Below, piece after piece: positions 26,220 through 58,474 of a stretch of 64,000 nt of DNA. Position numbers and translations under genes: made by a program. The notes beneath the pieces are model-generated. The model saw only the letters and a list, made by a program, of their open reading frames with translations. It did no database searches and was not told where the DNA came from. Location: NCBI GenBank assembly GCA_030679035.1, contig JAUXTH010000143.1:1-64000 (forward strand). The letters are read 5' to 3'. Numbering within the stretch: position 1 is the first letter of the stretch; each line of letters starts with the position of its first letter. Source of the stretch: Methylobacter sp. Lineage in GTDB: Bacteria; Pseudomonadota; Gammaproteobacteria; Methylococcales; Methylomonadaceae.

Positions 26220-27197
26220 TTACCCTACAATCACCAGCCAGTCAGTCAGATAGGTCATCTTTACCGACAAGTTTTTTCCCAAGACTTTCAGCATGTCGTC
26301 CGACTCACGCAAATTAATGCGACCATTGATTTTGAGTTCACGCAAAGTATTGTCCTTGTAAACCACCATACCGGTTCTGTAGCGGCGGATCTGGCTAATA
26401 ACACTTTCCAGCGGGACATTCTCAAACACCAGAAAACCGTTCACCCAGGAAGTTGTCAACGCCGAATCCAGTAGCCGGGTTTCGCCTAATCCTGCTGCAT
26501 TGACCGATACAGCCTCACGATCATGCAAAATCAGCGGCTGCATCAAAACACCCCGGTCGGTCACTTCAACGCGGCCGGACACGACTTTGACTTCGTCGCT
26601 CTCGCTCTTTTCATGCACGAAAAAACGGGTCCCCAATACGCGGGTCGTCGAATGACCGGCCTGGACAATAAACGGCCGGTTGGGGTCGGGCTTGACCTCG
26701 AAATAGACTTCGCCCTTCAGCAATTCGACGCTACGTTGCGGGCCATCCATGCTGACTGCGATAGAACTGTCGGTATTGAGCATCGCAGTGGAGCCGTCAT
26801 CGAAATAGACGGTTTTGCGCTCGCCCATCCTGGTCGAATAATCGCCTTGCACCAATATCTCCAGTTCGCTATGGAACAACAAGGTAAAAACCAGACAGGC
26901 TGCCATCGCCAGCGGCAGGTTGAATTTAGAGGAAGTTGTTTTTTTCTGCGGTGCTATGCGGTGTTTTTGAGCTGTTTCGCCAAGGGCTTGCAACAGGTCT
27001 GCATCGCCCCACAGCTTGCTGATTTCATTAAAGGTTTCATGATGCGCGTCGGATTGATTCAGCCATCGCAAAAATGACGTTTTTTCCTCGCTGGTGACAT
27101 TGTCGGCTCGTAACCGTATAAACCAAGCCACCGCTTGCTCGTCAAGATCGTTATTAAGCTCGGATTCCAAACTGTTCGTTTCGTTTTTCTGTTTCAT
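26220..27197 (-). CDS. FecR-family anti-sigma/regulator
   Basis: 325 residues. A cytoplasmic N-terminal sigma-binding region (about 1-90, with AVAWFIRLRADN and FLRWLNQSDAHHETF), one membrane helix (about 92-112) and a periplasmic FecR domain (GERKTVYFDDGSTAMLNTDS, GEVYFEV) are visible. It should receive the signal from the STN domain of the island TonB receptor and control the ECF sigma factor encoded at 32212-32712. It is unusual that the partner genes are 5 kb apart and on opposite strands. A GGAG site lies about 10 nt upstream. Confidence 0.9.
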   Translation of the reverse strand: MKQKNETNSLESELNNDLDEQAVAWFIRLRADNVTSEEKTSFLRWLNQSDAHHETFNEISKLWGDADLLQALGETAQKHRIAPQKKTTSSKFNLPLAMAACLVFTLLFHSELEILVQGDYSTRMGERKTVYFDDGSTAMLNTDSSIAVSMDGPQRSVELLKGEVYFEVKPDPNRPFIVQAGHSTTRVLGTRFFVHEKSESDEVKVVSGRVEVTDRGVLMQPLILHDREAVSVNAAGLGETRLLDSALTTSWVNGFLVFENVPLESVISQIRRYRTGMVVYKDNTLRELKINGRINLRESDDMLKVLGKNLSVKMTYLTDWLVIVG

Positions 27198-27336
27198 AGG
27201 TAACTACTCCAGTTTCTGCATAGAAAGCTCTCCGTAGCATGGAAACGCAACCGCATCGTTCGAAGATTTACGTTTCATAGTGCTCATTCTACCTAAAACC
27301 CATTGTTTATCATATTCCGCCTGAACTTTGTGTGCC

Positions 27337-29745
27337 CTAAGGCTGTAACAGCAGCGTGTATTCAGGCTTTCCGGCCGTCAATGGCATAGGCAAACCCTTT
27401 AACCAATAGTTCTGCTGATCCCGATAATAAGGCGATAAGGGCTGACCCGACTGGCCTCCCGGCATATGCAAAATGGCGTCTTCAAAATGGCCCGGCGCAA
27501 CCACCAGCCGTTCGCTGGCTCCAAAACCAGGCCCCGCCGCACGTACGCAAAAAGCGCAGCCCGGCAAGGCTTCGCCCGGCATATCGAGCAAACCGCTCAG
27601 TATCGGCAAAGCCCTGGAAAACGGATGCGTATGCTTGACCTTATTTAGCCTGCCCCAGTTCAATCCCATTAACGCTACCCCCGGCTGCTGACCTTGCACC
27701 AGCTGAATACTGCGTTTCAACTGCCCCAGAATAAAGTCGTCCCAACTCCGATAATGCGCCGCATCGGGCAATGCCTGAGACGGCTTTTCGCTCAGCAAGG
27801 CTTGCAGCGGCGTATCGATATAAGTCCAGGCATAACTGAAGTTTTTATCGGCCTGCCGACTGGCCGCTAAAAACGGCGTGAATACCGACTCGATCAATTG
27901 CTTGCGGAACTCGACCAGCAACGCAAAACCCAGACTGCCGACATCGGCCCGACCATCCCAGGCCAGCAGATAGTCGCGCGCCTCGGCCAAATCAGGCTGC
28001 ATCGCAATCGCTTCCTTGGTCAGACTGTCCAAGGCCAACTGCTGGTAAAATACATAAAACTCGCTTTCGGTATCCAATTGCAGATCGAACATGGCCCATT
28101 CGCCAATCTTGGGCATTTGCATAAGTTGCTGGGTAATCCTATAGGCACGGTAGCCGTTGCCGAACTGATGGCCGATCACATACGGGTAATTTTTACCCAG
28201 CCGGCGGTCGTTGGCCGACACCAGAATGCCCTCAGACGGGTCGATGACGCGCGGCAAATTCCCGGGCTCGACATAGCCGTTCCAGCCTACGCTGCCGTCC
28301 GCCCAGGAGCGACTGACCAAACCGTCATTGCCGAAGCGCTTGGGGATTTTGCCCATCAATGTCCAGGCAACACTACCGTTATCATCGGCCAGCAAAACAT
28401 TTAACTGCGGACCACCGGTGCTGTTGACGATTTTTACCGCTTGCTCCAGGGTCTCGCCTTGCTCCAAATCCAACAAATTGAGATTGACGGCATCGGCATC
28501 CAGCGCCGTCCAATGAATTGCCACCGGCTGATCCAGCAACGGCTGGCCGGCAACCGGCCCCCAGCGCGTCTGCTTAACCACGATCTGTTTGTCCGTACCG
28601 CCTTTAACGACTATGGTTTCAGGATACTCGTCGAAGCGTTGCCATTGCTCGCCTACCCGGTATTGGTCGGGATTATCGGGATTGATGTCGAGCCGCACTA
28701 AATCCAGAAAATCGCCGGTAAGATTGGTTGCTCCCCAGGCGATGTGCCGGTTGCTACCGACAATTAACAACGGTGTACCGGGTAGCGCCAAACCCGCAGC
28801 ATGCGTATCACCGTAATTTAGCTCGATACGATACCAAGTATTGGGCACCGATATACCCAAATGCATGTCGTTAGCCAGAATCGCCCGCCCGTCCCAAGTT
28901 TTTTTGCCGCTGACCGCCCAGGCATTGGAGCCGACCATAAAGTCGGACTGCTGTACTGTCTGCGCCAACGATGTCTTATCCGAGGGCTGATCGGCTAATG
29001 CGGCAGCCAAGGCCTCAACAGGAATCGCTTGCGCAGGACGCAGCGATTCTGCCTGTTTTTGCAGCTGTTCGGTGTAGGGATCGGTATCCGGCGTCAAAAA
29101 CCGCACTGCGGCGTCCGGCAAGGTTTTTCCCATTATGCTCAGCATGCGTTCGCTGCGTTCCTCCCCGGCAGTCAAGGTCTCGCACATGCCTAATACCACC
29201 AGCAGACTGTCTTCAGGAGTCCAAAGTTCCGGTTTATAACCCAATACTGTAAACTCGAAAGGCAGTGTGCCGGATTCAGCCATATAGCTGTTGACGCCGT
29301 CGGCATAGCTTTGCAGATAATGCTGATGCACTGGCGGCAGTTTTGCCAATATCGCTTTGGCTTCCCGATGGAAACCGTAGATCCTGGCCTTGATATCGTT
29401 GTCCAGCGCCATTTCACCAAAGATTTCCGCCAAACGCCCAGCGCTTTTGCGCCGCATCAAATCCATCTGAAACAAACGATCGCGGGCGGTGACATAGCCC
29501 AGCGCCCGAACCGCATCGATTCGATTGGCGGCATTGATCGCCGGAATGCCGTGTGCGTCGGTATGCACTTGAACCTCGGCCGTAAGCCGTTCCAGCTTCA
29601 CCGTGCCGTCAAGTCGCGACAGGGATTTATGCAAAACCCAAAAACCGCTGCCGATGCCAATCGCGGCCACACTTACTAGCGTCAAGCCGCTATATAAGAT
29701 AATTTTTCGAACATTCACCTTGTCATCCTTATTTCTCGTTCTCAC
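27337..29745 (-). CDS. Membrane-anchored penicillin acylase-family (PvdQ-like) acylase
   Basis: 802 residues of the Ntn-hydrolase penicillin acylase family. An N-terminal signal anchor (about 13-35) puts it in the periplasm. The self-processing site is Gly272|Ser273 in the MVGSNAWAVSG motif, Ser273 becoming the nucleophile of the beta chain. In pyoverdine biosynthesis PvdQ removes the acyl chain added by an acyl-AMP ligase; the NRPS in this island starts with such a ligase, so this enzyme most likely deacylates the exported peptide. Quorum-signal acylase activity is an alternative. Confidence 0.9.
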   Translation of the reverse strand: MRTRNKDDKVNVRKIILYSGLTLVSVAAIGIGSGFWVLHKSLSRLDGTVKLERLTAEVQVHTDAHGIPAINAANRIDAVRALGYVTARDRLFQMDLMRRKSAGRLAEIFGEMALDNDIKARIYGFHREAKAILAKLPPVHQHYLQSYADGVNSYMAESGTLPFEFTVLGYKPELWTPEDSLLVVLGMCETLTAGEERSERMLSIMGKTLPDAAVRFLTPDTDPYTEQLQKQAESLRPAQAIPVEALAAALADQPSDKTSLAQTVQQSDFMVGSNAWAVSGKKTWDGRAILANDMHLGISVPNTWYRIELNYGDTHAAGLALPGTPLLIVGSNRHIAWGATNLTGDFLDLVRLDINPDNPDQYRVGEQWQRFDEYPETIVVKGGTDKQIVVKQTRWGPVAGQPLLDQPVAIHWTALDADAVNLNLLDLEQGETLEQAVKIVNSTGGPQLNVLLADDNGSVAWTLMGKIPKRFGNDGLVSRSWADGSVGWNGYVEPGNLPRVIDPSEGILVSANDRRLGKNYPYVIGHQFGNGYRAYRITQQLMQMPKIGEWAMFDLQLDTESEFYVFYQQLALDSLTKEAIAMQPDLAEARDYLLAWDGRADVGSLGFALLVEFRKQLIESVFTPFLAASRQADKNFSYAWTYIDTPLQALLSEKPSQALPDAAHYRSWDDFILGQLKRSIQLVQGQQPGVALMGLNWGRLNKVKHTHPFSRALPILSGLLDMPGEALPGCAFCVRAAGPGFGASERLVVAPGHFEDAILHMPGGQSGQPLSPYYRDQQNYWLKGLPMPLTAGKPEYTLLLQP

Positions 29746-29903: not shown

Positions 29904-31574
29904 TTAAATGTAGGCTTGTACTGCATCCTCATTCGGCTGCATTTGCCTGCTTACCGCGACCGGCCTTTCCACGGCTACAATCTGGCCTTCTTCCAGCTTA
30001 ATGCAGCGATCCGCCAAATAAAAGTAACGGTCATCATGGCTGATGACCAATACTGTTTTGCCTTGGGCTTTCAAGGCCGGCAACAGCTCCGTATAGAATA
30101 AATGTTTGAATTCAGGATCCTGGTCCGCCGCCCACTCGTCGAACACGTAAAAAGGCCGGTCTTCCAAATAAGCGACCAATAGCGCCAAACGTTTACGCTG
30201 GCCTTGCGACAAATCCACCGTGGAAAACCGGCCGTTCTCAACTCGCACTTTATGATGTAAATGCAGACGCTGCAAATAATCGGCAATGAGGGCATGGTTG
30301 TTCCTGTTATCGAACCCATGCAGCTCATCAAACAAATAAAAATCCGAAAAAATCACCGAGAAGTTTTGCAAATAATCATCCCGGTTAACGTCGTCGACGA
30401 CCTCGCCGTTCCAGCGAATGAGTCCCTGTTCCGGCGTGTAGAGTCCGATCAGCAGCATTGCCAACGTAGTCTTGCCACTGCCGTTGCCGCCGACTAAAAA
30501 CACCAACTCTCCCGGATTAAAGTTCAGATCGATAGGCCCCAAGGTGAAATTACGATTTTCCTTTTCCCGATGAAATCTGTGCGTCACACCTTGTAACGAC
30601 AGTGCGGAAAACGATGCGCCCCCCTCAGTTTTATCCTGCGCATCGGCCGGTTCAATCTGACTATTGAGTTGGTCACCAAGCTGCTGGACTTTTTGTAACG
30701 ACACATTGGCGCGGCTAAAAATCGGCAAACTGTTTGTGAGTATAGTCAACGGCGACATCATGAACAAAAACACCAGCGCATAGCCGCCGATCACCTTCTG
30801 ATCGATAACCTGCCAAACCGGAAAAACATATAGAATCACGCCTATGGCCAAGTAATACAGCAGCTGCGCCCACTGATTAACCAATAAAAAAGCTATCGCT
30901 CCCCGAAAAGAGTACAGTCTATAGGTCTCAGCACTGTCCGCCAGCGACTGCGCCATAAACGCGTCGCTACGCTGCCGGTGCAATTTCAACTCGCGAATGC
31001 CTTCGGTCAAAGCCCGAAAATTGCCGCTAAGCACATCGAATTCCTCCCGCGCCTTGAGTAGATTTTTTTGGGGCAAATTACTGAACAGATTAAAACTCGA
31101 TACACCCAATACAATCACCCCGCCCAAAACCAGGGCCAGATGCCAGGACAACCAACTCAGATATGCCATGCAACCTGCCACGACCGCAAAATTAATGCAG
31201 ACGACCGGCAATAATTGACTGGCATTGGCTATCGCCGTGATATCCTCGGTCAGATTAGCCAATAATGCCGACTTGCCGATCTTTTGCAGACAAGGATAAG
31301 GCGCAGCAAGAATTAAACGGCTAATTTGGATGCGAAGATCGCAGACAATCCTGGCGCTGAGTCGATTAAGCAGATAATGCGATAGAAAATTGCTGGACAG
31401 TACCGTAATAGACAGTCCGCCAAACAGCCACGGCAAAAGTTTGGCATCCAAAGTATTCGACAGCGTCGAATTAATCAACGCCACCAAAGCCGCACTGCTT
31501 AAGCCGCTGATGATACCGGCCAGCAGTACCCCAACAATCGTTAGCCAAGAAGAGCGGCACAAAAAAACTAACAT
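29904..31574 (-). CDS. PvdE/SyrD-type cyclic-peptide ABC exporter
   Basis: 556 residues with an N-terminal six-helix transmembrane domain and a C-terminal ATPase, the fused half-transporter layout of PvdE. The ATPase shows Walker A GGNGSGKTT (about residue 360), signature LSQGQRKRLAL, Walker B FYVFDEWAADQDP and the H-loop VISHDD. In pyoverdine producers PvdE moves the acylated precursor to the periplasm, where PvdQ acts; the acylase gene is directly downstream here. AAGGAAA lies before the start. Confidence 0.93.
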   Translation of the reverse strand: MLVFLCRSSWLTIVGVLLAGIISGLSSAALVALINSTLSNTLDAKLLPWLFGGLSITVLSSNFLSHYLLNRLSARIVCDLRIQISRLILAAPYPCLQKIGKSALLANLTEDITAIANASQLLPVVCINFAVVAGCMAYLSWLSWHLALVLGGVIVLGVSSFNLFSNLPQKNLLKAREEFDVLSGNFRALTEGIRELKLHRQRSDAFMAQSLADSAETYRLYSFRGAIAFLLVNQWAQLLYYLAIGVILYVFPVWQVIDQKVIGGYALVFLFMMSPLTILTNSLPIFSRANVSLQKVQQLGDQLNSQIEPADAQDKTEGGASFSALSLQGVTHRFHREKENRNFTLGPIDLNFNPGELVFLVGGNGSGKTTLAMLLIGLYTPEQGLIRWNGEVVDDVNRDDYLQNFSVIFSDFYLFDELHGFDNRNNHALIADYLQRLHLHHKVRVENGRFSTVDLSQGQRKRLALLVAYLEDRPFYVFDEWAADQDPEFKHLFYTELLPALKAQGKTVLVISHDDRYFYLADRCIKLEEGQIVAVERPVAVSRQMQPNEDAVQAYI

Positions 31575-32211
31575 AAAATATTTCCTTTAAGCTTGCGTGT
31601 GCACAATTCAATGCGTTAGAACAAATTCTATGTAGCGCATCAGGACTCAAAGCCAAAGTGAGTCTAATAATAGGACGCCTTAAGACCTCTTTGACCTCAT
31701 CCGTTCCACTAAAAATACTGCCGAATACTGAACCTGCCACTGTCAATTTCATGAAAAAATTATGCTGAAATCGCATCGTTCGCAGGAAAAACGCCCATGC
31801 CCCGCTTAAAAAAACTATGTTATTTAACGCATTAAAATGAGCCATATGCCTATTTTTTCAAATCCCTGCCCTGCGCTCACAGATAACCCATTGTAATTAC
31901 TAAGATATGCGATTGGCACACTAACTGCTTAACTAAGCCATGAAAAGTATCGGCATTCTGCGGCAACTCAACCTGTCGTGCAGAATCGGTATATTACAAA
32001 CCGCTTGCCGGAATGCCGGTAGCTGCGAACTAACAAAACCATGTAATCACATATGTTTAATCGATTCGATAATCCATATTCTTTTGTCAAACAACCCAGG
32101 CAAATAAGCAACGCCGCTAGAGCTCAAAAAATCGAATATCAGCTTTATTCCATCGCCTCCGGCATAGCAGCAAGATAAATATTCTGAACAACAACGAAGA
32201 GGGATTTGAAC
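31575..32211. promoter_or_regulatory. Divergent promoter region, exporter/sigma factor
   Basis: This 637-nt AT-rich gap separates the exporter (minus) from the sigma factor (plus). A frame of 124 codons across its left end overlaps the exporter antisense and has no family features, so I do not call it. An inverted repeat CGGCATTCTGCGGCAA (31951-31966) / TTGCCGGAATGCCG (32005-32018) could form a hairpin or be an operator. I see no convincing Fur box. Confidence 0.45.
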
Positions 32212-32712
32212 TTGAACGTAGAAGCCATTTACTTAAATCACCAGTCCGAATTGCAGTTTCATTTGACCCGGATTGTCAACTGCCCGGATATAGCCGCCGA
32301 TCTCGCTCAAGAAAGCTTCATTATTTTTTTCCGCGAAGCGCAAAAACAAACAATTGATCATCCGCGCGGTTTTCTGTTCAGGGTTGCCAAAAACCTCGCT
32401 TACGATCACATCAAGCATCGAAAAGTAACCGAAAATTACGTACAAACAAAAGAGCAATCCCTACCCCCTCCAAGTGAATTCCCCTCTGCCGAGAAACTCG
32501 TATCCATTGACGAAAGGTTAGCCGCCATCACGCGGATACTGGATGAATTACCTTTGCGCACCCGTGAGATATTTGTCCTAAATAGGGTTTACGGCATGAC
32601 CTATGCCGAAACCGCCCAGGAATTGGGCATATCCGATAGCGCCGTTGAAAAACACATGGCCAAGGCTCTGCTGCACTGCCGTAAACAATTTAAAACCCAC
32701 AGACTGGATTAG
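32212..32712 (+). CDS. FecI-like ECF sigma factor
   Basis: About 166 residues with sigma region 2 (ADLAQESFIIFFREA, then HPRGFLFRVAKNLAYDHIK) and region 4 (LPLRTREIFVLNRVYGMTYA, ISDSAVEKHMAKAL), the layout of the iron-starvation FecI/FpvI group. There is no ATG; the TTG at 32212 has an AGAGGG site with 8-nt spacing, while the TTG at 32206 is too close. It should direct transcription of island genes under control of the FecR protein. MbtH follows on the same strand. Confidence 0.92.
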   Translation: MNVEAIYLNHQSELQFHLTRIVNCPDIAADLAQESFIIFFREAQKQTIDHPRGFLFRVAKNLAYDHIKHRKVTENYVQTKEQSLPPPSEFPSAEKLVSIDERLAAITRILDELPLRTREIFVLNRVYGMTYAETAQELGISDSAVEKHMAKALLHCRKQFKTHRLD

Positions 32713-32822
32713 CATAACAACTGAGGTATTTTGCCGCTGCTATCGTCTACTCTGCGGAAACCATCCCGTCGCAACAAATGATAGGGTGCGTTATGGCAAT
32801 TACATATCAGTGGAGAATTACA

Positions 32823-33041
32823 ATGGCTTGGGACGAAGAAGACACCACCATTTATCAGGTTGTGGTCAATCACGAAGAACAATATTCAATTTGGCCCGAA
32901 TATAAAGAAATACCGGGCGGCTGGCGGGCTGTCGACAAAACCGGCAACAAACAGGAATGCCTGAATTACATCAAAGAAGTCTGGACGGATATGCGCCCGT
33001 TAAGCTTGCAGATACACATGCAACAAACGGTGCCGCAATAG
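32823..33041 (+). CDS. MbtH-like NRPS accessory protein
   Basis: A 72-residue MbtH protein, a small partner that binds NRPS adenylation domains and promotes their folding and activity. Nearly all signature positions are present: [27 protein letters not shown], and [10 protein letters not shown]. The ATG at 32823 follows a GGAG site; 15 in-frame upstream codons are not part of the family. It lies 110 nt after the sigma factor gene and probably shares its transcript. Confidence 0.95.
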
Positions 33042-33119: not shown

Positions 33120-34328
33120 TTAAAATTCTCCGCCAAACAGCAACCTGCCAAACTCTAAGGCCATAACTACATTGCCATCGCCGGTTATTTCACCCTGCTC
33201 ATAAGCATTGACGGCGGTTTTCCTACCATCAATCAGCTCATGAAAAACTTTATAGGTTGTAGCGATTGTGCAATCACTGGGCTTATCGTCTTCTTGTAAG
33301 GTTAAATCGCCGCTATGACTCTCAATTGTCCAAACTCCGCCTTTTAACCCGGTTATCACGAATTTACAGACACCCTGTAATTGGCTGAATTTATCCATCC
33401 TTGCAGCGCTATTTCGTAAAAAACGGTTTTGGAAAAAATCATTTAAATCCAGATCCCCAAGTGTCCGTTTTTCATCGCCTTGTTGCTCGGCATACTGAAA
33501 CTCTATCGTTGGATAGCCTAGCTGCCGGTGAAGCGTGTCAACCTCGGCCATCAGTTCATTCGGAATTGCCGTCAATGGAATCGCTGTCCCATTACCGATT
33601 GAATCTTTGTTGATTTTTTCGGAAAACCAGACTTTCACATCGCCGTCTCCCTGGTCGTGAGGCACTTGAAAAATCCGATCAATTAAGTCCTCATCCCAAG
33701 GCTCGCCCAGAAAATCAAACAGTTTTGCCAAGACCTGTTCCGGTTGCTTGACCAAAGCCTCATAGTTAACCCTGATGCACTGACCGGCATGAGTCTGCTC
33801 GAATGCGATCAGTTTGCCGGTCTTATCAAGCCAGTTATCAATCATCGCGGCAACAAGATTTGTCGGGCGTTTCTGTACATAAGGGGCCAATTCAGGCATA
33901 TAGCCTAATGGGCTGAATTTAATGCTCGAATAAGCGACATCCAGGCAATTGCGGTATAAACAAATATAGTTAGCCTGCGGGAAAACCTTTGCCAGTATCT
34001 CCAGATAATCGATATTGACGGTCGATTTTTCGCACCAATTTGTTTTGCCTTTCCCTTGTGCATAGCGACCCAGCAAGTCTGTGACCACACGCCGGGTTTC
34101 TTTAATTGCCAACTGGTCTCGTTGCACTTCAGTTTCCAACTCCGGCAATTTTCCCAACGAATAATAAGTCGTCGTATATAAATCGGCGCATAACGGTCCT
34201 AAGTTCAAATGTCCCGGACTACATAGATTAGGGTGTGTATCGATAATACAGCGCAGCATTGTCGAACCTGATCGAACACAAGATAAGATAAAAATCGGTT
34301 CCAGATGACGATCATTTGTATTTGCCAT
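33120..34328 (-). CDS. Sulfotransferase with SCP2-like C-terminal domain
   Basis: 402 residues. The N-terminal part (about 1-290) is a PAPS-dependent sulfotransferase: the phosphosulfate loop CVRSGSTMLRCIID at 17-30 and the 3'-phosphate motif YRNCLDVAYSSIKFS. The last roughly 95 residues resemble a sterol-carrier (SCP2) lipid-binding domain (FVITGLKGGVWTIESHSGDL to AYEQGEITGDGN). Together with the APS kinase at the other end of the cluster it suggests O-sulfation of the lipopeptide, the SCP2 part perhaps gripping its acyl chain. The acceptor group is not known. Confidence 0.85.
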   Translation of the reverse strand: MANTNDRHLEPIFILSCVRSGSTMLRCIIDTHPNLCSPGHLNLGPLCADLYTTTYYSLGKLPELETEVQRDQLAIKETRRVVTDLLGRYAQGKGKTNWCEKSTVNIDYLEILAKVFPQANYICLYRNCLDVAYSSIKFSPLGYMPELAPYVQKRPTNLVAAMIDNWLDKTGKLIAFEQTHAGQCIRVNYEALVKQPEQVLAKLFDFLGEPWDEDLIDRIFQVPHDQGDGDVKVWFSEKINKDSIGNGTAIPLTAIPNELMAEVDTLHRQLGYPTIEFQYAEQQGDEKRTLGDLDLNDFFQNRFLRNSAARMDKFSQLQGVCKFVITGLKGGVWTIESHSGDLTLQEDDKPSDCTIATTYKVFHELIDGRKTAVNAYEQGEITGDGNVVMALEFGRLLFGGEF

Positions 34329-34453: not shown

Positions 34454-35683
34454 TTAACCTATTGCTTTGAAATGATTTTTAGCCCGTTTTTTTTGCCGCC
34501 AGCGGATCAGGCCGGTGACAAATAACACCGGGCAGGCTAAACCGGTGACAAATACCAAGATACGCCCTGTCATGCCGAAGGCCTGCCCGGAATGCAGCGG
34601 CCATTGCCAATGGGTGAACACTTCGCCTGCCGTGCCGATGGTCGGATCGTCTACGTCCAGTATTTTTCCGCTATAGCGATCCATTACCAGGCAACGGCGC
34701 TGCAACAGGCTGCCGGGCGCATCGACGCCATCCTGACATACCGTATAGGTTTTGGTAGGTGCGGGGGCGCCGTAAATAAAATGCGGCCGTCCGGTCGGAT
34801 AGCGTTGCATGGCAATGGCGACTGCTTCGTCCATCCCGATGGCTTGAGCATTGCCGGTCGGCGGCGTGGAATGGAACCAATAGCGGTAAGTCACCGGCGA
34901 TAACAGCTCCAGCACCGGCACCACTTGATGCGGCAACACCATGTAAATACCGGAAAACAGCACCGGCAGCATCACCAGAGCGGTGTAAAAACCAGAGAGC
35001 TTGTGCAGGTCGTAATTGAAGCGGACGCTACCGGACTTAGGCTTAACGACCAAGGCTTGGCGCCAGCGGCCGGTCAACGGCCACCAAACAATCAGGCCAG
35101 TCAACACCGAGATAATCAACAATGCGCCGGATACCCCCACCACAACAGCGCTAATCTCTTCCGACTTAATCAGCAATGCGTAATGCAGCACAAAAATGAA
35201 ACCGATGAAGGTTTTGGGTATAACACTATCCGAACTGCCCATCAGGCGCTTGCCAAGCACTTGCGCGGTATAAGGATCGACGGCAACCAGCCAGTTTTCG
35301 TTGATGCCGCCCGCCGCAGCCACAGAATAACGTAGCGTTAAGGCAGCGTTGTCGTTACGCGGATAAGTGGCGAAAGTGTGTTTGGCTTGCGTCGGCATGG
35401 CTTTTCGCCCGACCTCAAAAAGAGTCGCCAACGGCTGATAAGACACCGAATCTGCCGGTGGCTTTACAATTAATAGCTCACTGTTCAACCATTCATCGAT
35501 TTCCGGATAAAACACCAGAATGCTGCCGGTGATGCCGTAGATCGAAAGCAAGAAACCCAATATCAACCCCAGCCACAGATGCACATCCAGCCAACGTTTG
35601 CGGCGGAGTTTTAGGCGAGATAGTCGCAGGTTTGCTGATTGCTGCTCAGTTGCCGAATCGGCATGATTCACATTGGATGTCAT
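34454..35683 (-). CDS. PepSY-associated membrane protein
   Basis: 409 residues with the layout of PepSY-TM proteins: an N-terminal helix after RRKRWLDVHLWLGLILGFLL, paired central helices, and a C-terminal helix, with histidines near helix ends (DVHLW, VLHYALL, DLHKLSGFY, LHSGQAF) that could bind haem. Members next to TonB siderophore receptors are thought to act as inner-membrane reductases of the imported metal complex. It lies 70 nt after the receptor gene on the same strand. Confidence 0.85.
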   Translation of the reverse strand: MTSNVNHADSATEQQSANLRLSRLKLRRKRWLDVHLWLGLILGFLLSIYGITGSILVFYPEIDEWLNSELLIVKPPADSVSYQPLATLFEVGRKAMPTQAKHTFATYPRNDNAALTLRYSVAAAGGINENWLVAVDPYTAQVLGKRLMGSSDSVIPKTFIGFIFVLHYALLIKSEEISAVVVGVSGALLIISVLTGLIVWWPLTGRWRQALVVKPKSGSVRFNYDLHKLSGFYTALVMLPVLFSGIYMVLPHQVVPVLELLSPVTYRYWFHSTPPTGNAQAIGMDEAVAIAMQRYPTGRPHFIYGAPAPTKTYTVCQDGVDAPGSLLQRRCLVMDRYSGKILDVDDPTIGTAGEVFTHWQWPLHSGQAFGMTGRILVFVTGLACPVLFVTGLIRWRQKKRAKNHFKAIG

Positions 35684-38156: not shown

Positions 38157-38175
38157 GATTCCACCAGTTTTATCA

Positions 38176-50500: not shown

Positions 50501-53500
50501 CCGAACATTGCACCAAGCTCACACGCATCAACGGCGCACGGGTAAAATCGAATCCGCTTGCCAGATCGTCGGCCTGTAGCTGTTGCCAGTGTTGCGCTTG
50601 TTCCAAAGCCGGTTGGCCCCGCCAATCGTATTCGGTAATCGGCAGTTGCAGGTTCTTTTCCACGATTTGCAAAGGCTGATCCTGATTCTCGAAATGGAAA
50701 CGGGTGCGCAGAATCGGATGATGCCCGACCAGCTGTTGCCAAACTTGTTTGAAGGCAGGGACATTGAGTTCGCCCGTCAAACGGCAACCGATTTGGATGC
50801 AGTAAACGCTGGATTCGGCGGCAATCAAACTGTGGAACATCAGTCCGTGTTGCAGCGGCGCCAGCGGGTAGACGTCTTCAATCTGCCGGGGCGTCAAGAC
50901 CAAGGCGTCCAGTTCGGTTTGCGCCAAGGCAATTAACGGAAAATCAACCGGCGTATAGCTGCCCGAATCAGGCAATACGCAATGCGCTATCAACGCTTTG
51001 AGATGGCGCAGATAATGCCCGGACAGGGTTTCAATACTGGCCTTGCGGTAGCGCTCGCGGCTGTAGCGCCAGCTTAGCTGAAGCCGCCCGTCGGCAATAC
51101 TGCCGATCACGGCCAATTCATGCGCCCGGAGTCCTGCCGGATCGCAATTTGCGCCGGTCGCTGCACGGGTCGGTGAGAACGGCGCATCGGCTACCATGAC
51201 CGTGTCGATTTGGCCGAGGTAGTTAAAAATGATCTGCGCTTTGGGCTGGGCGGCCAGTTGCGCTTTAATCTCAGCATCCGGCGAAAGGTAGCGCAGCAGG
51301 CCGTAGCCGATGCCCTTCATCGGAATGGCCCGCAGTTGCTCTTTGACCAATTTCAGCGCATCGCCCAAGGAAGCGTCGCTGGAAACACTCAACAGCGCGG
51401 GATAAACGCTGGTAAACCAGCCCACGGTGCGGGAAACATCCACGTCGCCGGCTATGTCCTCGCGCCCGTGGCTTTCCAAATCGACCAATACCGATTCGCT
51501 GTGCATCCAGTCGCGTAACGTGAGCGTCAGCGCAGTCAGCAACAGTTCATCTATTTTGGTGCGATAAGCCCCAGGAGCGTCCTGTAGCAAGGCGCGCGTT
51601 TCGGCTTCGGTCAAGCTGACCGTTATCTCGCTTTCCGCTGCAAACAGGTTGCCGCCAGCGGGTTCGTCTACCGGCAACTCTGCAACCTGATGCCGCAGCG
51701 CATCCAGCCAATAATAGGTGTCGAGCGGCAAACCGCCTGCGCCTGCCTGATTGACGATTTGTTCAGACCAGTATTTGAATGAAGTGGTTTTTGCCGGTAA
51801 TGCCGGTGCCCGACCGGCCATCAATTGCCGGCAAAGGCTGCTCAAATCTTCCAGCAAAATCCGCCAGGAAACGCCGTCCACGACCAAGTGGTGGATCGCT
51901 AGCAACACACGGTCGCCCCGCCCTTCGCCCAAGTCGAACCAAACCGCACGCAATACCGGGCCTTCACTTAAATGCAGCTGGGCTTGCTGAATCGATGCCG
52001 CCGATTCCAGCATCTCGGCTTGCCATTCTGTGGGGACGTCGGCTAAATCGATGCGTTCGAAAACCGCCTGGGGTTCATCCTTAAGCAGGTGTTGTTGCCA
52101 CTCGCCGCCTTGTTGGTTAAACCGCATCCGCAACGCATCATGATGGATCAGCAATTGTTTGATGGCAGCCTCTACAATATCCGGGGTCAAGCCGGGACCG
52201 GCTTCCAGCAACAATGCCTGATTCCAGTGATGGGGGTTATTCAGGTTTTGCTCGAAAAACCAGTGCTGGATCGGCGTCAGCGGCACGCCGCCGGACACCG
52301 GCCCTTGTTCGGCGGATAGCTGTTGAATCTGTTCGGCGGCCAGCGCCAACGCGCTTAGCGTTTGATTCTGAAACAGCTGTTTCGGGGTAATCACGACACC
52401 GGCCTGCCGTGCGCGGCTGACGACCTGAATGCTCAAAATCGAATCGCCGCCCAGTTCGAAGAAGTTATCGTGCAGCCCGACGCGCTTGACCGCCAACAAC
52501 TCGCGCCAAATATCGGCCAAAATATTTTCAACCGGCGTTTGTGGTTCCTGGTAGTGTTGCGTTGACATTCCGCTCATATCCGGTTGAGGTAAACGTTTGT
52601 GATCCAGTTTACCGTTGGCGCTGAGCGGCATGCTGTCCAGCAGCACAAAGGCCGAAGGCACCATGTAATCCGGCAGCGTTTCCTTGAGCCGGGCTTTTAG
52701 CGTTTCGATGTTGACAGCCTCCTTGCTGACAGCAACCAGATAAGCGACCAGCCGCTTGTCGCCGGGTTGGTCTTCCCTGGCAATAACTGCCGCCTCTTTT
52801 GTATCGGGTGCCTCAAGCAGCCTTGCCTCGATTTCCCCCAACTCAATCCTGAATCCGCGAATTTTTACCTGATGATCGATACGGCCTAAAAAATCGATAT
52901 TGCCGTCCTGACGGTAACGCGCCAGATCGCCGGTTTTATACAGCCTGCCGCCGTTTTGTATAAACGGATCGGGGATGAACTTTTCCGCCGTCAGTTCTGG
53001 ACGTTGCCAATAGCCGCGCGCCACACCTGCTCCGCCGATATGGAGTTCGCCCTGCACCCCGATAGGCGCAGGGTTGCCGCAGCCATCCAGGATGTACAGC
53101 CGGACGTTGTCGATCGGTCGGCCGATCGATAACGGCCTGTCCAGGTCGTCTTGAGTTGCCGGGTAAACGCTGCTCCATACCGTGGCTTCGGTCGGGCCGT
53201 ATTCGTTATACATCTGCACCTGCGGCAACACCGCGTAGTGTCGCTTGACAACTTCGGTTGAGCACGCCTCTCCGGCGACAATGGCCGTTTTCAGGGTTTG
53301 CAGCTGCGCTCCTACTTGGTTCAACAGCAAACCGTAAAAGGACGGCAGCGCCAGCAGATGCGTGACTCGATGGCGTTCGATCAATGCGCCCAGAGCGGAC
53401 GGATCCTTGATCTGATCGTCCTCAGGTAAACACAGACAGCCGCCCTGCCCCAGCGTCCAGAACAATCCGGCTACGGAACTGTCGAACGCAAACGAGGACA

Positions 53501-56500
53501 GCAATAGATAGCAGCCGACCGGCTCCTGATAATAAGCGCCTCTGGCCCAGGTGGAGTGCATCAGGTTGCCGTGGCCGACGACCACGCCTTTGGGTTTGCC
53601 GGTCGAACCCGAAGTGTAAATAACATAGGCCGCGTGATCAGCATGCAGCGGTATTTCCAGGTTATCGCTGCTGTAATGGGCATAAGTGTCAATATCATCA
53701 ATGCAAATCGTCGCCAAATCGCCGCAATCCAGGCTGGGCAACAGTGCTGCACTGGTCAGCAGCCAGTCACAACCGGCATCTTGCAGCAAATAAGCGAGTC
53801 TCTCTTTGGGATAAGCAGGATCGACCGGCACATAAACCGCGCCGGCTTTGAGGATAGCCAATATCCCAAGCACCATCTCCGGGCTGCGCTGGATACACAA
53901 GGCGACGCGTTTTTCCGGCCCTGCACCTTGCATCCGCAGACACTGCGCCAGGCGATTGGCCTGCGCATTAAGCTCAGCATAGCTAAGACGCCTTTCCTGA
54001 TAGACCAGGGCTGACGCTTGCGGCTGTTGCCGAGCGACGGCTTCGAAAACGCTGTGTACCGTGCTGTTACGCGGGTAATCGGAACCGGTTTCATTCCAGG
54101 CCGACAGCTTTTTTTGCTCCGGCACGGTCAGCAACGGCAGCTCCGACAAACGGCTGGAGGGATTGGCAAGTATGCCGTGCAGCAGGCATTGGAAATGGCC
54201 TATAAGCCTTAAAACCGTAGAGCGGGACAGCAGATCGCTACGGTATTGGAACGAGGCCTCCAAGCCTTGCCCCGTCTCCGCCATCAGCAAGGTAAGATCG
54301 AATTGTACGGCGACATCCTCCAGCGCATAGCTTTCGGCCGGCACACCCGCCCAATCCAGCGCTATGCCCGGTATGCCCAGTGCCAGCCCGGCAGCGGCCG
54401 ATGCAGGATCGGCGCCGCTCTGCAACCCGAACCAGACCCGGTAAAACGCCGACAGTCCCTGATCGCGTTCAGGCTGCAATTTTTCTACCAGCAGCGAAAA
54501 CGGGTAATGCTGATGCTCCAGAGCGCCCAGCACCGTAGCGTTGACCTCGGCCAAATAATCGCTAAAGCGCTGGCCGGCGGCAGGGTGTGAGCGTAGCGCC
54601 ACCGGGTTGACGAAATAACCGACGGTGTCGGTAAACTCTCTCTTGGGCCTGCCCAGCGTCGGTGAGCCGACGATGATGTCCTGTTCTCCGCTATAACGAT
54701 AAAGCAGGGTTTTAAATACAGTCAGTAACAGCGTATACAGGGTCGTGTGATGCTCTGCGGCCAGTCGTTTAAGCTTTTGCAGGGTATCCGGTGCGATATT
54801 AAGATTTTCCGAACGCCCCCGGCATGACTGCGCACCGTCCGTTTTCCGTTCTGCAGGCAAAGCCAGCTTCGGCAATTCGCCGGACAACCGGCCTCGCCAG
54901 TATTGCCAGTCCTGTTCAGCGCGCTGGTCGGACAGATAGGCTGATTGCCAGGCGACATAATCGTCGTAACTCGCCGCCAAGTTAGGCAGCTTCGGGGTAT
55001 GCCCGGCTACCTGCCCCAGATAAAGCGCTTTGAATTCTTCCAGCAAAATCGAGAACGAGCGAAAATCGACAACGATGTGATGCGCGCAAAACACCAGCAC
55101 CTGATCGTCGTCGGCGCAGCTGAACAAGGCTGCAACCAGTAACGGTTCATTCGCCAAATCGAACGGTTCATGCACGAAAGCGGCGATATTTTCACTGCGT
55201 TGACGCTCATCGTCGCAACTGATCTCGGCGAACCGGGGCTGTAATTCCGTCAGCGGGATACGCACGATCCGGGTGTGCTGGTTAAGCCGAAAGCCGCTGC
55301 GAAGTTGTGCATGACGCTCGAACAATGCCGCCAATGCGTCGTGTACTGCCGTTTTATCAAGCTTGGCGCGGATATGTATCGCAACCGACATGTTATAGAG
55401 CGAGCTGTCCGCCTCTATCCGGTTGACGGTCCACAGCGCCTGCTGCCCGTAGGATAGCGGCTGTTCGCCGCCGTCTTTGACCGGAGCCGGCGCAATTTGC
55501 GCCGGCCCTGCCTTGGCCAATTTCAAAGCCTGTTCCGCGCACTCACCCAGAGACTGATTGCCGAGCAGATGCATGACCGGCAAATCGATAGCCAACAGCT
55601 CGTCGATAAAGTATTTCAGTTCCACCGCTTTTAGCGAGTCCATGCCCAAGCCGGTCAGCGATTGCTTTACGTCCACGGCTTCGACGGACAATCCGGACAG
55701 GGCCGCCGCCTTTTCGGCCAGATACTGCGCCAGCAGCTGCGCACCTTCGGCATCGGCAACCGACAGTAAAGCCTGTCTCAGTAAAGTCCGTTCCAGGCTA
55801 ACCGCCGGTTTAGCTGCCGCAGCGTTGCTGCTCTGGCTTACACCGTCCAACGCATCGACGGCGACCGCTTTTAAATCCTGTTGCTCAAAAGCCTGCCGAC
55901 AAGCCGAGCGCCTGATTTTGCCACTGCTGGTTTTCAGGATCGCTCCCGGTTTCAGAAGCATTACGGTGTCGGCCTGTATGCCGCATTCTTCGACCAGCCG
56001 TGCGCGTATCGCGGCGAACTCGGCCTTGTAATCGGACTGTCTTAAGCGGTTGCGCTTCAGTTCCGCCAATACGATCAGCTTTTCACCGTCGGCTCCACTG
56101 ACTGCAAAAGCAGCCGCACAGCCGGGATTTAATGCATCCGTCGCCGCTTCGGCCGCGTGCTCCAGGTCGTGAGGATAATAATTACGGCCGCGGATAATGA
56201 TCAGATCTTTCAGCCGCCCTGAAACGAACAATTCTTCGCCATTAAGAAAGCCTAAATCGCCTGTGCGCAGCCATTGGCCGTCGGTATCGCCGACAAAAGC
56301 CTGCTCGGTGGCTTGTGGATTTTGCCAATAGCCCAGGCTGATGCTGGGGCCCCCTAGCTGGATCTCGCCGATTCGGCCATCGCTGCACAATTCGCCTGAC
56401 TCCGGCTCGACGATACGAATTTGTTGTCCGGCATCGCCGGCTATCTTGCCGCAGCCAACCAGGCGTCGGCCTGCCTGATCATCCATGACCCGCTGTACAT

Positions 56501-57611
56501 TACCTTGTTCCAGACCTATCTTGTCAAAAGCCGTCACCGTGGGTTCGGCATATTTATCCCCGCCGGTAGCCAGCAAGGTTGCTTCCGCCAAGCCGTAACA
56601 GGGATAAAAAGCCTCGCGGCTAAATCCGCATTCTGCAAAAGCGGCGGCAAAACGATCCAAGGTATCCGGGTTAATCGGTTCGGCGCCGTTAAAGGCCAAT
56701 TGCCAGCTGCTAAGATCCAACCCAGCTTTTTCTTCGGCCGAGATTTTTTGCGCGCACAGATTGAATGCAAAATTGGGCCCGCCGCTGGTATGAGCGCGAT
56801 AATCGCTGATCGCTTGCAGCCAGCGGACAGGTTTTTCCAGAAACGCCATCGGCGACATTAAAATTGCGCTGGCCCCGCAATACAAGGGCTGCATGACGTT
56901 GCCGATCAAACCCATATCATGGTAGAGCGGCAACCACCCGACCACCGTCGACTGCGCATTGTGACCGAAGCGCCGTTTGATCAGCTGCTGATTCGCCATC
57001 AGATTGCCGTGGCTGATTATCACGCCCTTGGCGTTGCCGGTGGAACCCGAGGTGTATTGCAGGAAAGCCGGATCATGGTCGCGCAATGTCGGCAAGCGCC
57101 AGCCGCTTGCATCGACATCGGCAAGACTGTCGGTAATCAGCCAATGCCTATCTAACAAACCAGCACTGTCGACTGCAAATTGGCGCACCGCATTGGCGAC
57201 GCTTTGCGTGCTGAGTATCACCGCCGCCTGACTGTCATCAATGACCGCCTGCAAACGCGGCATGTGTCGGCCATTGCTCGGCGGATACGCCGGTACCGCA
57301 ATCGCTCCGGCGTAAAGACAGGCGAAAAACGCCACGATATAGTCTAATCCTGGAGGATAGAGCAAAACAGCGCGTTCGCCCTGCAACCCCTGCAACTGAA
57401 CGGCCAGCTGTCTGGCCTGCAAATCCAGCTCGCCGTAAGTCAGCGAGTTAAGCGGTTGTTCGCCGTTTTCCAGGAACGTATAAGCCGTGCGCTGCGTTTG
57501 CCGTTCTGCCCGCCACCGCAATAGTGCAACCAAGGATGCAGCGTTATCGATCAGTTCATCTTCATCGGCAACGTCAAAGCTGTACTGTTTACTTAACATC
57601 TGTTTCACCAT
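47523..57611 (-). CDS. NRPS, acyl-AMP ligase loading and modules 1-2
   Basis: 3362 residues: fatty acyl-AMP ligase (1-570; QYTSGSTGNAKG, GWLPLYHDMGLIG); ACP (GLGMDSLKAVE, about 657); acyl-accepting C (HHIVVDF, about 843); A1 (about 1335); T1 (about 1722); epimerase (about 1905); C (HHILLDGWS, about 2380); A2 (about 2898); T2 (about 3290). No thioesterase. The A1 pocket reads as A3 of the partner; A2 reads D-V-W-H-I-S-L-V-D-K, serine-like. About 44 extra residues near 2725-2770, just before the LSYAELN core of A2, come from a palindromic repeat. The start may be the ATG at 57611 or 57599. Confidence 0.95.
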   Translation of the reverse strand: MVKQMLSKQYSFDVADEDELIDNAASLVALLRWRAERQTQRTAYTFLENGEQPLNSLTYGELDLQARQLAVQLQGLQGERAVLLYPPGLDYIVAFFACLYAGAIAVPAYPPSNGRHMPRLQAVIDDSQAAVILSTQSVANAVRQFAVDSAGLLDRHWLITDSLADVDASGWRLPTLRDHDPAFLQYTSGSTGNAKGVIISHGNLMANQQLIKRRFGHNAQSTVVGWLPLYHDMGLIGNVMQPLYCGASAILMSPMAFLEKPVRWLQAISDYRAHTSGGPNFAFNLCAQKISAEEKAGLDLSSWQLAFNGAEPINPDTLDRFAAAFAECGFSREAFYPCYGLAEATLLATGGDKYAEPTVTAFDKIGLEQGNVQRVMDDQAGRRLVGCGKIAGDAGQQIRIVEPESGELCSDGRIGEIQLGGPSISLGYWQNPQATEQAFVGDTDGQWLRTGDLGFLNGEELFVSGRLKDLIIIRGRNYYPHDLEHAAEAATDALNPGCAAAFAVSGADGEKLIVLAELKRNRLRQSDYKAEFAAIRARLVEECGIQADTVMLLKPGAILKTSSGKIRRSACRQAFEQQDLKAVAVDALDGVSQSSNAAAAKPAVSLERTLLRQALLSVADAEGAQLLAQYLAEKAAALSGLSVEAVDVKQSLTGLGMDSLKAVELKYFIDELLAIDLPVMHLLGNQSLGECAEQALKLAKAGPAQIAPAPVKDGGEQPLSYGQQALWTVNRIEADSSLYNMSVAIHIRAKLDKTAVHDALAALFERHAQLRSGFRLNQHTRIVRIPLTELQPRFAEISCDDERQRSENIAAFVHEPFDLANEPLLVAALFSCADDDQVLVFCAHHIVVDFRSFSILLEEFKALYLGQVAGHTPKLPNLAASYDDYVAWQSAYLSDQRAEQDWQYWRGRLSGELPKLALPAERKTDGAQSCRGRSENLNIAPDTLQKLKRLAAEHHTTLYTLLLTVFKTLLYRYSGEQDIIVGSPTLGRPKREFTDTVGYFVNPVALRSHPAAGQRFSDYLAEVNATVLGALEHQHYPFSLLVEKLQPERDQGLSAFYRVWFGLQSGADPASAAAGLALGIPGIALDWAGVPAESYALEDVAVQFDLTLLMAETGQGLEASFQYRSDLLSRSTVLRLIGHFQCLLHGILANPSSRLSELPLLTVPEQKKLSAWNETGSDYPRNSTVHSVFEAVARQQPQASALVYQERRLSYAELNAQANRLAQCLRMQGAGPEKRVALCIQRSPEMVLGILAILKAGAVYVPVDPAYPKERLAYLLQDAGCDWLLTSAALLPSLDCGDLATICIDDIDTYAHYSSDNLEIPLHADHAAYVIYTSGSTGKPKGVVVGHGNLMHSTWARGAYYQEPVGCYLLLSSFAFDSSVAGLFWTLGQGGCLCLPEDDQIKDPSALGALIERHRVTHLLALPSFYGLLLNQVGAQLQTLKTAIVAGEACSTEVVKRHYAVLPQVQMYNEYGPTEATVWSSVYPATQDDLDRPLSIGRPIDNVRLYILDGCGNPAPIGVQGELHIGGAGVARGYWQRPELTAEKFIPDPFIQNGGRLYKTGDLARYRQDGNIDFLGRIDHQVKIRGFRIELGEIEARLLEAPDTKEAAVIAREDQPGDKRLVAYLVAVSKEAVNIETLKARLKETLPDYMVPSAFVLLDSMPLSANGKLDHKRLPQPDMSGMSTQHYQEPQTPVENILADIWRELLAVKRVGLHDNFFELGGDSILSIQVVSRARQAGVVITPKQLFQNQTLSALALAAEQIQQLSAEQGPVSGGVPLTPIQHWFFEQNLNNPHHWNQALLLEAGPGLTPDIVEAAIKQLLIHHDALRMRFNQQGGEWQQHLLKDEPQAVFERIDLADVPTEWQAEMLESAASIQQAQLHLSEGPVLRAVWFDLGEGRGDRVLLAIHHLVVDGVSWRILLEDLSSLCRQLMAGRAPALPAKTTSFKYWSEQIVNQAGAGGLPLDTYYWLDALRHQVAELPVDEPAGGNLFAAESEITVSLTEAETRALLQDAPGAYRTKIDELLLTALTLTLRDWMHSESVLVDLESHGREDIAGDVDVSRTVGWFTSVYPALLSVSSDASLGDALKLVKEQLRAIPMKGIGYGLLRYLSPDAEIKAQLAAQPKAQIIFNYLGQIDTVMVADAPFSPTRAATGANCDPAGLRAHELAVIGSIADGRLQLSWRYSRERYRKASIETLSGHYLRHLKALIAHCVLPDSGSYTPVDFPLIALAQTELDALVLTPRQIEDVYPLAPLQHGLMFHSLIAAESSVYCIQIGCRLTGELNVPAFKQVWQQLVGHHPILRTRFHFENQDQPLQIVEKNLQLPITEYDWRGQPALEQAQHWQQLQADDLASGFDFTRAPLMRVSLVQCSDQAHYLLWSYHHILLDGWSGPLLVKELFAAYESIRRGNAPLSTAVRPYRDYIAWLQNQDMAAAEAYWRSELSGFSAPTMLLADKPADNTGQHQVSDYAKLGLTLSAEYTDTLLAFAKQQHLTMNTLVQAAWGLLLSRYSGENDIVFGTTVSGRPADLIGVETMVGLFINSLPLRIKIRPDSTVLDWLQALFAQNQDMRRYEYTPLTQVQGWSEVARGTPLFESLLVFENYPINQALAEHADGLTVDEIGVVDQSNYPMTVSAFPGSELRLEITYAADRFEAETVKRMLEQLQCLLAAFIEHPHTRLSELSLLSAADKRQILVEWNATETDYPQDRFIHQLFEAQVEKTPDAVAVMFERQVLGIPNSTYGSHALRGNPGRDAPASRTAERFELHSHAERGNDELILSYAELNAKANQLAHYLCSKGVGPDVLVGICVERSLEMVIGLMGILKAGGAYVPLDPGYPQDRLDFMLHDVNAPIVLTQETCREKIAAFTATVLCLDSEWDKVSKACDANPDVPLKPENLAYCIYTSGSTGQPKGAGVPHQGILNRLQWMQQQYGLDQTDKVLQKTPYSFDVSVWEFFWPLMTGAQLVVARPEQHKDSLALIDTINDRHVTTIHFVPSMLQVFIDTPGVENCTSLKRVICSGEALPADLVQRFLQKLPAELHNLYGPTEASVDVSYWACLPGSAETAIPIGRPIANIALYILDRQLNPVLPGTPGELHIGGIGLGRGYLNRPGLTAEKFIPNPYGPVGSRLYKTGDLARYRPDGTIDYLGRNDFQVKIRGFRIELGEIENRLSAYAGVREAVVIAREDGHGDKRLVAYLTQDVGNELSIADLRADLAETLPDYMLPSAFVVLPALPLTANGKLDRAALPKPDADSVISHRYEAPQGAIETALSGIWQELLELERVGRNDHFFELGGHSLMALTLVERLRQQGWALEPRAVFAYPVLSALAAAIADNQGNSPAFEMPPNLIPEHFGQSLSNPVLEEFRL
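49302..49396. repeat. Family A palindromic repeat inside NRPS gene
   Basis: GTTCCCACGCTCTGCGTGGG at the left, internal GAACCGCTCTGCGGTTC and GGACGCTGGAGCGTCC, and an inverted end CCACGCAGAGCGTGGGAAC. It is the same family as the nuo gap repeats, and similarity extends a few bases beyond both ends. It is read through in frame (NRPS protein segment from about GIPNSTYG to AERGNDEL) with no stop codon. Confidence 0.85.
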
Positions 57612-57752
57612 TTATACAGTCTCTTGAATTGTAGTTATGTAGGCAGGAATAAGACCGTTTGAGCGGCAGCGAAAGCGACTGTTTCCGGCACGCTGAGAAT
57701 TGCTCTAACTCCTCGCAATCATTCACAGAAATAAAGCTTCCAACGCCTAGTG

Positions 57753-57781
57753 GACGATTGACCGTAATATTTTCCTCATAG
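57753..57781 (-). promoter_or_regulatory. Repeated box upstream of NRPS gene
   Basis: A 29-nt sequence that matches 58646-58674 at 26 positions. Read towards the NRPS gene it is CTATGAGGAAA, then CGGTCAATCGTC. GGAAA and CGTC resemble -35 and -10 elements of ECF sigma promoters, although the 14-nt spacing is short. It lies about 145 nt before the NRPS start; no other feature explains it. Confidence 0.45.
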
Positions 57782-57823
57782 TTGAGTTTTAACTATTCGG
57801 TCTAGCTGAGACAGATATATCGC

Positions 57824-58474
57824 TCATGCTTTTTTGCAGCTTTGATGGCTAAAGTTTGCAGCATTGATTATGCCGCGCTGCATCATTTTACCGACAACCT
57901 GTTGCACACAGACATCCAGCTCTGCGATGCCGGTTTGCACGGTAAGCTCACAGTTTCCAGGCACTTCGTAAGGGGACGTGATGCCTGTGAATTCGGCCAA
58001 CTGCCCGGCCCGAGCTTTTTTGTAGAGGCCTTTTACGTCGCGCGATTCGCAAATTTCTATGGGCGTATCGCAATAGATTTCGATGAAATCGCCATGCTCT
58101 ACGATACCGCGCACACGTTCACGGTCTGCACGATAAGGAGAGATAAAGGCGGTAAGCACAATGACACCTGCTTCCATAAAAATCTTGGCCATTTCACCGA
58201 TGCGACGAATGTTTTCCTGGCGGTCTTTTGCTGAAAAGCCCAAGTCACCGCACAAACCATGGCGAACATTGTCGCCATCCAGCACGAAGGTGCGACAACC
58301 ACGCTGATGTAACGCTTCTTCAACGGCATGAGCCAGCGTAGATTTGCCCGACCCGGATAAGCCGGTAAACCATAAGATTGCACCGCGATGACCGTTTTGC
58401 GCTTCACGCCGAGTGCGGGTAACGGTGGCGCGGTGCCAAACGACATTGGCTGTAGCTGGCCGCAGTGTAGTCAT
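57824..58474 (-). CDS. cysC: Adenylylsulfate (APS) kinase
   Basis: About 216 residues from the ATG at 58474. It phosphorylates APS to PAPS, the sulfate donor for sulfotransferases. The P-loop GLSGSGKST, the [16 protein letters not shown] segment, the RENIRR-type helix and FISPYRADR are all present. No ATP sulfurylase is encoded nearby, so APS comes from the cell pool. It lies upstream of the NRPS genes on the same strand and is coupled by ATGA to a small upstream frame. With the sulfotransferase at 33120 it implies a sulfated product. Confidence 0.94.

Follow-up and report, generated by a model that had tools for sequence, protein, structure and literature searches.

The DNA analysed here (the window, 64,000 nucleotides of a Methylobacter sp., GenBank contig JAUXTH010000143.1; contig C210 of a 4.79 Mb draft genome) contains a nonribosomal peptide synthetase (NRPS) gene cluster whose product is likely a metallophore. 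Dedicated export and TonB-dependent re-import genes accompany the synthetases, the combination that broadly marks nonribosomal peptide metallophores. The reading we tentatively favour, at somewhat under even probability, is a system handled in the manner of pyoverdine, in which unmodified histidines are the ligands and a Cu(II) site of the amino-terminal copper- and nickel-binding (ATCUN) type would form after deacylation. Copper is the leading candidate metal, although short of an even chance, with iron, which we regard as less probable, as its main rival.

The assembly line itself encodes the metal ligand, a role that we predict from the codes of its adenylation (A) domains. The first and third A domains share a histidine code, and the second and fourth a code which we take to specify serine (Table 1). 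Codes were obtained by hand reading and by alignment, which agree for A1, at positions that we took to be those of GrsA numbering, without a template. PMC12283262 describes four signatures across 14 histidine-activating domains, said to identify histidine precisely, and in the same passage names DSALIAEVWK as accepting beta-hydroxylation; the strings DVWHIS, DIWEICADD and DIWELTADD do not occur in its main text. All six condensation (C) and epimerization (E) domains carry HHxxxD motifs, and the serine motifs of five carrier proteins and the NGK motifs of four A10 sites are in place. One di-module appears to be a duplicate of the other, with identities of 73% for A1/A3, 72% for A2/A4, 70% for E1/E3 and 94% for the thiolation (T) domains T1/T3. 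The predicted core is acyl-D-His-L-Ser-D-His-L-Ser, released as an aldehyde or alcohol.

An earlier note on this DNA had proposed the backbone acyl-D-X-Ser-D-X-Ser-al/ol and had suggested A-domain specificity prediction as a check. The D residues at positions 1 and 3 and the serines at 2 and 4 stand, and the prediction replaces X with histidine. Loading by an acyl-AMP ligase is borne out by the fatty acyl-AMP ligase (FAAL) and acyl carrier protein (ACP) heading NRPS1, and four modules with reductive release by the domain order and the terminal PF07993 reductase. The same note had listed no chelator-forming enzymes and had called the mode of metal binding open. The cluster indeed holds no chelator-forming gene, but the two histidine codes still supply a ligand, and with both X codes read as histidine the binding mode is narrowed in part and is not wholly open.

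Table 1. Genes, domains and adenylation-domain cores of the cluster and two neighbouring genes, by position in the window. Genes were assigned by Pfam and NCBIfam profile matches.
Feature	Position	Strand	Evidence or code
FecR-type anti-sigma sensor	26220..27197	-	Pfam FecR, DUF4880, FecR_C
N-terminal nucleophile (Ntn)-type penicillin-amidase acylase, PvdQ-like in role	27337..29745	-	PF01804 E=1.5e-162
Cyclic-peptide/PvdE-type ABC exporter	29904..31574	-	TIGR01194 490 bits (cut-off 286); ABC_membrane, ABC_tran
FecI-type extracytoplasmic function (ECF) sigma factor	32206..32712	+	Sigma70_r2, Sigma70_r4_2
MbtH-like protein	32778..33041	+	PF03621
3'-phosphoadenosine-5'-phosphosulfate (PAPS) sulfotransferase with fused C-terminal SCP2 lipid-binding domain	33120..34328	-	PF13469, PF00685, PF02036
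PepSY-TM inner-membrane protein, candidate metallophore reductase	34454..35683	-	PF03929
STN-type TonB-dependent receptor	35754..38249	-	STN, Plug, barrel domains
NRPS2: TubC_N docking-C-A(His)-T-E-C-A(Ser)-T-reductase	38176..47526	-	
Terminal thioester reductase domain (NAD_binding_4) of NRPS2	38317..39456	-	PF07993 E=6e-71
A4 core (Ser)	40273..40902	-	DVWHISLVD
A3 core (His)	44932..45561	-	DSALIAEVW
NRPS1: FAAL-ACP-C-A(His)-T-E-C-A(Ser)-T	47523..57611	-	
A2 core (Ser)	48408..49037	-	DVWHISLVD
A1 core (His)	53112..53741	-	DSALIAEVW
Adenosine-5'-phosphosulfate (APS) kinase, PAPS supply	57824..58498	-	PF01583; TIGR00455 above cut-off
Single-domain CZB (chemoreceptor zinc-binding) protein	59210..59572	+	
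Small Metal-Binding Protein SMBP	59935..60270	-	PF16785 E=9.6e-32

Every part that the earlier note had named was found where it had been placed, and the motifs that we checked are intact. Pfam matches confirm the FecI/FecR pair, the MbtH protein and the STN receptor; the exporter, whose likeness to PvdE we presume, passes the TIGR01194 cut-off; and APS kinase and sulfotransferase are both present. The PvdQ-like acylase holds as a PF01804 acylase and in its presumed role, but not by the NCBIfam PvdQ model, against which it scores 66 bits (cut-off 950). A PepSY_TM gene adds a part that was absent from that note's list. The overlap of receptor and NRPS2 in Table 1 is likely a start-codon artefact, as the receptor start is probably an internal ATG at ~38156.

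Several of these proteins have structural relatives in the PDB. Acylase beta chains in the PDB, including that of PvdQ, place the beta-chain start of the acylase at query residue 273 (context GSNAW), so that Ser273 is the predicted catalytic residue, and a hydrophobic N-terminal stretch suggests a periplasmic location. The PepSY protein has a single PDB match at E<=0.01, the PepSY protein 7abw, which we take to be FoxB. PDB matches of the receptor include YncD, pyrroloquinoline quinone transporter, CntO, FoxA, FpvA and FecA; naming the metal by receptor homology was rejected, as these matches are uninformative. The two best PDB relatives of the sulfotransferase are 4gox, a polyketide synthase (PKS) chain (E=5.5e-10), and 4gbm, from CurM (E=2.4e-9). 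Its C-terminal SCP2 domain, which has weak PDB matches to SCP2/lipid-transfer proteins, suggests that the enzyme acts on the acylated form.

From these genes, domains and motifs we infer an order of steps. The acyl-AMP ligase would load a fatty acid, the synthetases would build acyl-D-His-L-Ser-D-His-L-Ser, and the terminal reductase would free it as an aldehyde or alcohol. The sulfotransferase, with PAPS derived from the APS kinase and the SCP2 domain perhaps gripping the acyl tail, would sulfate the peptide, probably at a serine or the terminal hydroxyl; both this position and the retention of the sulfate are our suppositions. The ABC protein would carry the acylated form into the periplasm, where the acylase would remove the acyl chain. 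Histidine at position 3 together with a free N-terminus constitutes the ATCUN pattern, and deacylation would expose NH2-His-Ser-His as such a site for Cu(II), with a second imidazole. Once loaded with metal, the peptide would re-enter through the STN receptor, which would signal through FecR to FecI. Reduction of Cu(II) to Cu(I) by the PepSY protein may then free the metal.

The cluster is a member of a wider set of histidine-rich, sulfotransferase-bearing clusters in the same order. A sulfotransferase search (threshold E<=1e-30) of 201 Methylococcales genomes, own genome included, gave matches in 22, spread over 11 of 48 genera, and neighbourhoods were examined in 20 of the 21 other matching genomes, G075 being left out (G numbers denote genomes and L numbers loci). 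Seven of the 12 named loci related to the sulfotransferase belong to Methylobacter, two of these being from M. tundripaludum SV96 and from OWC-G53F. Because the relatives were found through the sulfotransferase, its presence in them reflects selection, whereas their histidine content was not selected. Counting only A domains of at least 80 bits and assigning His or Ser by code, 31 of the 57 A domains outside the window are of histidine type (30 with the exact code, one DSALVAEVW), and at least one of these occurs in 16 of the 17 relatives in which any A domain could be read. The exception, G136, has one A domain, for serine, near a contig end; G054, G160 and G159 have no readable A domain, and G094 has a weaker Asp-like domain below the 80-bit cut-off. 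The codes DIWEICADD and DIWELTADD, which we take to specify diaminobutyrate (Dab), occur in five relatives, and class-III aminotransferase genes in four of these five clusters (G105, G175, G108, G011) were taken to aid this assignment.

The earlier note had advised a search for the same gene set in other genomes. Among the 20 relatives found through the sulfotransferase, the orthologous FecR/acylase/ABC/FecI/MbtH set, as far as each stretch shows, stands with the cluster in 10. The acylase and ABC genes of six further relatives are more distant, and the acylase/ABC/regulator set was not seen within the examined stretch of the remaining four. A terminal reductase occurs in 13 of 20; it was not seen in the seven-module lines of G115 and G112, in G061 and G074, or in G054, G131 and G090, whose stretches are cut off. 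The acylase is 82-87% identical to that of the window in G136, G054, G112, G180, G131, G160 and G015. Receptor identity is 79% in G136, which has the E-C-A(Ser)-reductase end in common with the window, and 22-25% in G112, G180, G160 and G015 (28-30% over shorter stretches in the first three); the examined stretches of G054 and G131 showed no receptor match. Within a conserved frame of regulator, export and acylase genes, receptor and NRPS appear to vary in concert, which would fit a receptor that follows the product.

Further features of related loci were observed. In G066 (L041 5938-10237), truncated sulfotransferase pieces, with an ORF (open reading frame) nearby that is presumably transposase-like, accompany a Cupin_8 gene and a full-length sulfotransferase, apparently a decaying copy. 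G180 (L036 6669-13700) encodes three sulfotransferase paralogues (~40-69% identity to that of the window), two PepSY genes and a His-Ser-His-His line. Carbamoyltransferases (L031, L041, L054, L056) and glycosyltransferases (L031, L045, L054) may provide extra tailoring. A 3.7 kb contig binned as Bacteroidia (L067) carries a 94% identical sulfotransferase and is probably a mis-binned methanotroph contig.

In comparing assembly lines we equated gene order with module order and excluded G061 and all partial lines. Histidine is the third residue in 8 of the 12 readable lines (the window, G180, G066, G105, G067, G175, G011 and G108), and in such lines the free amine that the acylase would create would make the ATCUN pattern available. 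Together with the plain histidine ligands, this upholds the earlier suggestion that copper be considered as well as iron. As a rule for the whole family the ATCUN pattern was rejected, given the four other lines. A fuller version of the reading, which we put forward with more doubt, describes the product as a chalkophore made nonribosomally by gammaproteobacterial methanotrophs. It would be a (D-His-Ser)2 pro-peptide, N-acylated and sulfated, that would bind Cu(II) at its ATCUN site after periplasmic deacylation and release it reductively through PepSY. This version would set the product within a module-swapping group of Methylococcales histidine metallophores, where, with the same doubt, epimerases, hydroxylases, receptors and modules would be exchanged and the export/acylase/sigma frame conserved.

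Several observations weigh against copper bound by plain histidines. A CmlA or Cupin_8 hydroxylase lies within the related clusters of 15 of the 20 relatives, which suggests beta-hydroxyhistidine, and hence Fe(III), as a family theme. CmlA-type diiron beta-hydroxylases stand beside histidine modules in eight (G066, G115, G112, G131, G090, G094, G105, G061; in G131 and G090 on a different contig from the sulfotransferase), and Cupin_8 occurs in the clusters of nine (G066, G160, G074, G105, G067, G175, G108, G159 and, as a partial match, G008). The CmlA gene of G108 lies outside its sulfotransferase cluster; whole-genome counts are 9 of 21 for CmlA_N and 13 of 21 for Cupin_8, and searches of G180, G015 and G054 detected neither. 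Module 1 includes an epimerase in the window and in G180; in G066, G115 and G094 a CmlA gene stands there, without an epimerase match. Histidine at position 3 is broken in G112, G115, G015 and G094. The relatives of the PepSY protein and the receptor are mostly siderophore proteins, the FecI/FecR design also counts toward iron, and the SMBP gene was not found in the examined stretches of the relatives. The own genome, the one searched for P450 and TauD, has three P450s, away from the cluster and none above any NCBIfam cut-off, so that a hydroxylase outside the cluster is possible.

These observations favour, as a less probable account than copper, an iron siderophore in which a distant or unrecognised hydroxylase would supply two beta-hydroxyhistidines, with Fe(III) completed by serine, sulfate or aldehyde-hydrate oxygens; two hydroxyhistidines alone would leave it under-coordinated. 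Against such a siderophore, a whole-genome profile search found no CmlA_N, Cupin_8 or TauD match in the own genome. Of two partial PF13434 matches just above the cut-off, the one on C210 was rejected, being a pyridine nucleotide-disulphide oxidoreductase. No Fur box above chance was found either: upstream of FecI the best sites match 10-12 of 19 positions in 11 clusters (9-14 in 500 shuffles of the window's region), and across the whole cluster the best is 13 of 19, level with 20 shuffles (13-14). The scan is able to find boxes in this genome, as shown by a 16 of 19 box just upstream of hemP, where hemP, tonB, exbB, a receptor and a PepSY-like protein form a run; a second genome-wide match lies on contig C188. 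As an iron marker for the cluster the footprint counts as weak evidence only, and the missing box is compatible with iron control, for instance through another regulator. At hemP (L087 10341-10365) strong Fur-box-like sites overlap, and the receptor of that run is of siderophore type.

The same histidine sites could instead serve a broad metallophore or one for zinc, nickel or cobalt, with a role like that of pseudopaline, which we think improbable. The receptor is about equally close to FoxA and to CntO, the receptor for metal-pseudopaline, and ATCUN-type sites also bind Ni(II), but the CntO match is weak and common to many receptors, and a reductase-like gene would hardly be of use with Zn(II) or Ni(II). 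In CurM the sulfate is a leaving group, and with CurM among the best solved relatives, a route that loses the sulfate competes seriously with its retention: an O-sulfo-serine would be eliminated or cyclised to a sulfate-free product, whichever metal is bound. We give this still less credence, since the structural match is weak and 4gox and CurM act beside PKS thioesterases, of which the cluster encodes none. The terminal reductase could also yield a peptide aldehyde that inhibits proteases or serves as a signal taken up through the receptor, but the exporter, acylase, MbtH, FecI/FecR, STN receptor and PepSY protein jointly fit metallophore systems, making this very improbable.

The genome contains pmoA, and methane oxidation by particulate methane monooxygenase (pMMO) depends on copper. 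Its two PF05114 proteins score 50 and 23 bits against MbnB (curated cut-off 325), and both exceed the HvfB cut-off; PF05114 was therefore rejected as a sign of methanobactin in this genome. The genome has two MNIO/HvfB-type maturase loci for ribosomally synthesized and post-translationally modified peptides (L106 561-2658; L107 15206-16800), one of which has an HvfC-type protein (NCBIfam) and an adjoining small, secreted-looking, Cys-bearing ORF, possibly a bufferin-like peptide. On the APS kinase side of the cluster, SMBP, of a family that binds copper, has 10 histidines in 111 residues, and the CZB gene lies between the two. The pmoA gene, the lack of an MbnB match and the proximity of SMBP were weighed in favour of the copper reading.

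None of the titles and abstract openings listed in searches of an open-access library describes the cluster's product, nor do the available parts of PMC13274454, PMC11964084 and PMC13251462. The cluster offers a concrete genetic candidate in Methylobacter for a copper, or possibly iron, scavenger other than methanobactin, with predicted residue order and import route. On the favoured reading, the product would be a nonribosomal metallophore that relies on histidine alone, is probably sulfated and leaves the synthetase by reduction, and no known chelator gene accompanies it in the cluster. Such a cluster is of the kind that the chelator-based detection of PMC12971057 can miss.

Among known systems, pyoverdine (PvdL, PvdE, PvdQ, FpvA and FpvI-FpvR) comes closest in handling, with an acyl-AMP ligase start, MbtH, PvdE-type exporter, Ntn acylase, STN receptor with a sigma/anti-sigma pair and inner-membrane reductase-like protein. 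The pyoverdine-like scheme of the earlier note survives as shared logic but not as membership: the window lacks the D-Tyr/L-Dab chromophore modules, has four modules with only His and Ser codes, releases by an NAD_binding_4 reductase instead of a thioesterase, and adds the sulfotransferase-SCP2 protein and APS kinase, with histidine as the only evident ligand. Beta-hydroxyhistidine siderophores of the corrugatin and histicorrugatin type are likewise NRPS peptides with histidine as a ligand, and the signature reported to accept the hydroxylated residue (PMC12283262) is that of the window. They differ in that the window's genome gave no match to the three hydroxylase families and its cluster lacks an Asp code but has reductive release and sulfation genes.

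Methanobactins are also peptide metallophores of methanotrophs, some sulfated and some with FecI/FecR and an N-terminally extended receptor, according to PMC3621798; they are ribosomal, whereas the window product would be nonribosomal, and the genome's PF05114 proteins are HvfB-type. The same paper reports that no Mbn operon was detected in several methanotroph genomes, such as those of M. capsulatus Bath and M. album BG8, and expects any chalkophore they make to differ from known methanobactins. A Methylococcus capsulatus NRPS was proposed for copper scavenging in 2004 (PMC517821) and shares with our candidate the idea of a nonribosomal copper scavenger in a gammaproteobacterial methanotroph, but it was described as an ornithine-type starter module and a thioesterase-bearing module, in contrast to the His/Ser codes, acyl ligase, sulfotransferase and reductase of the window.

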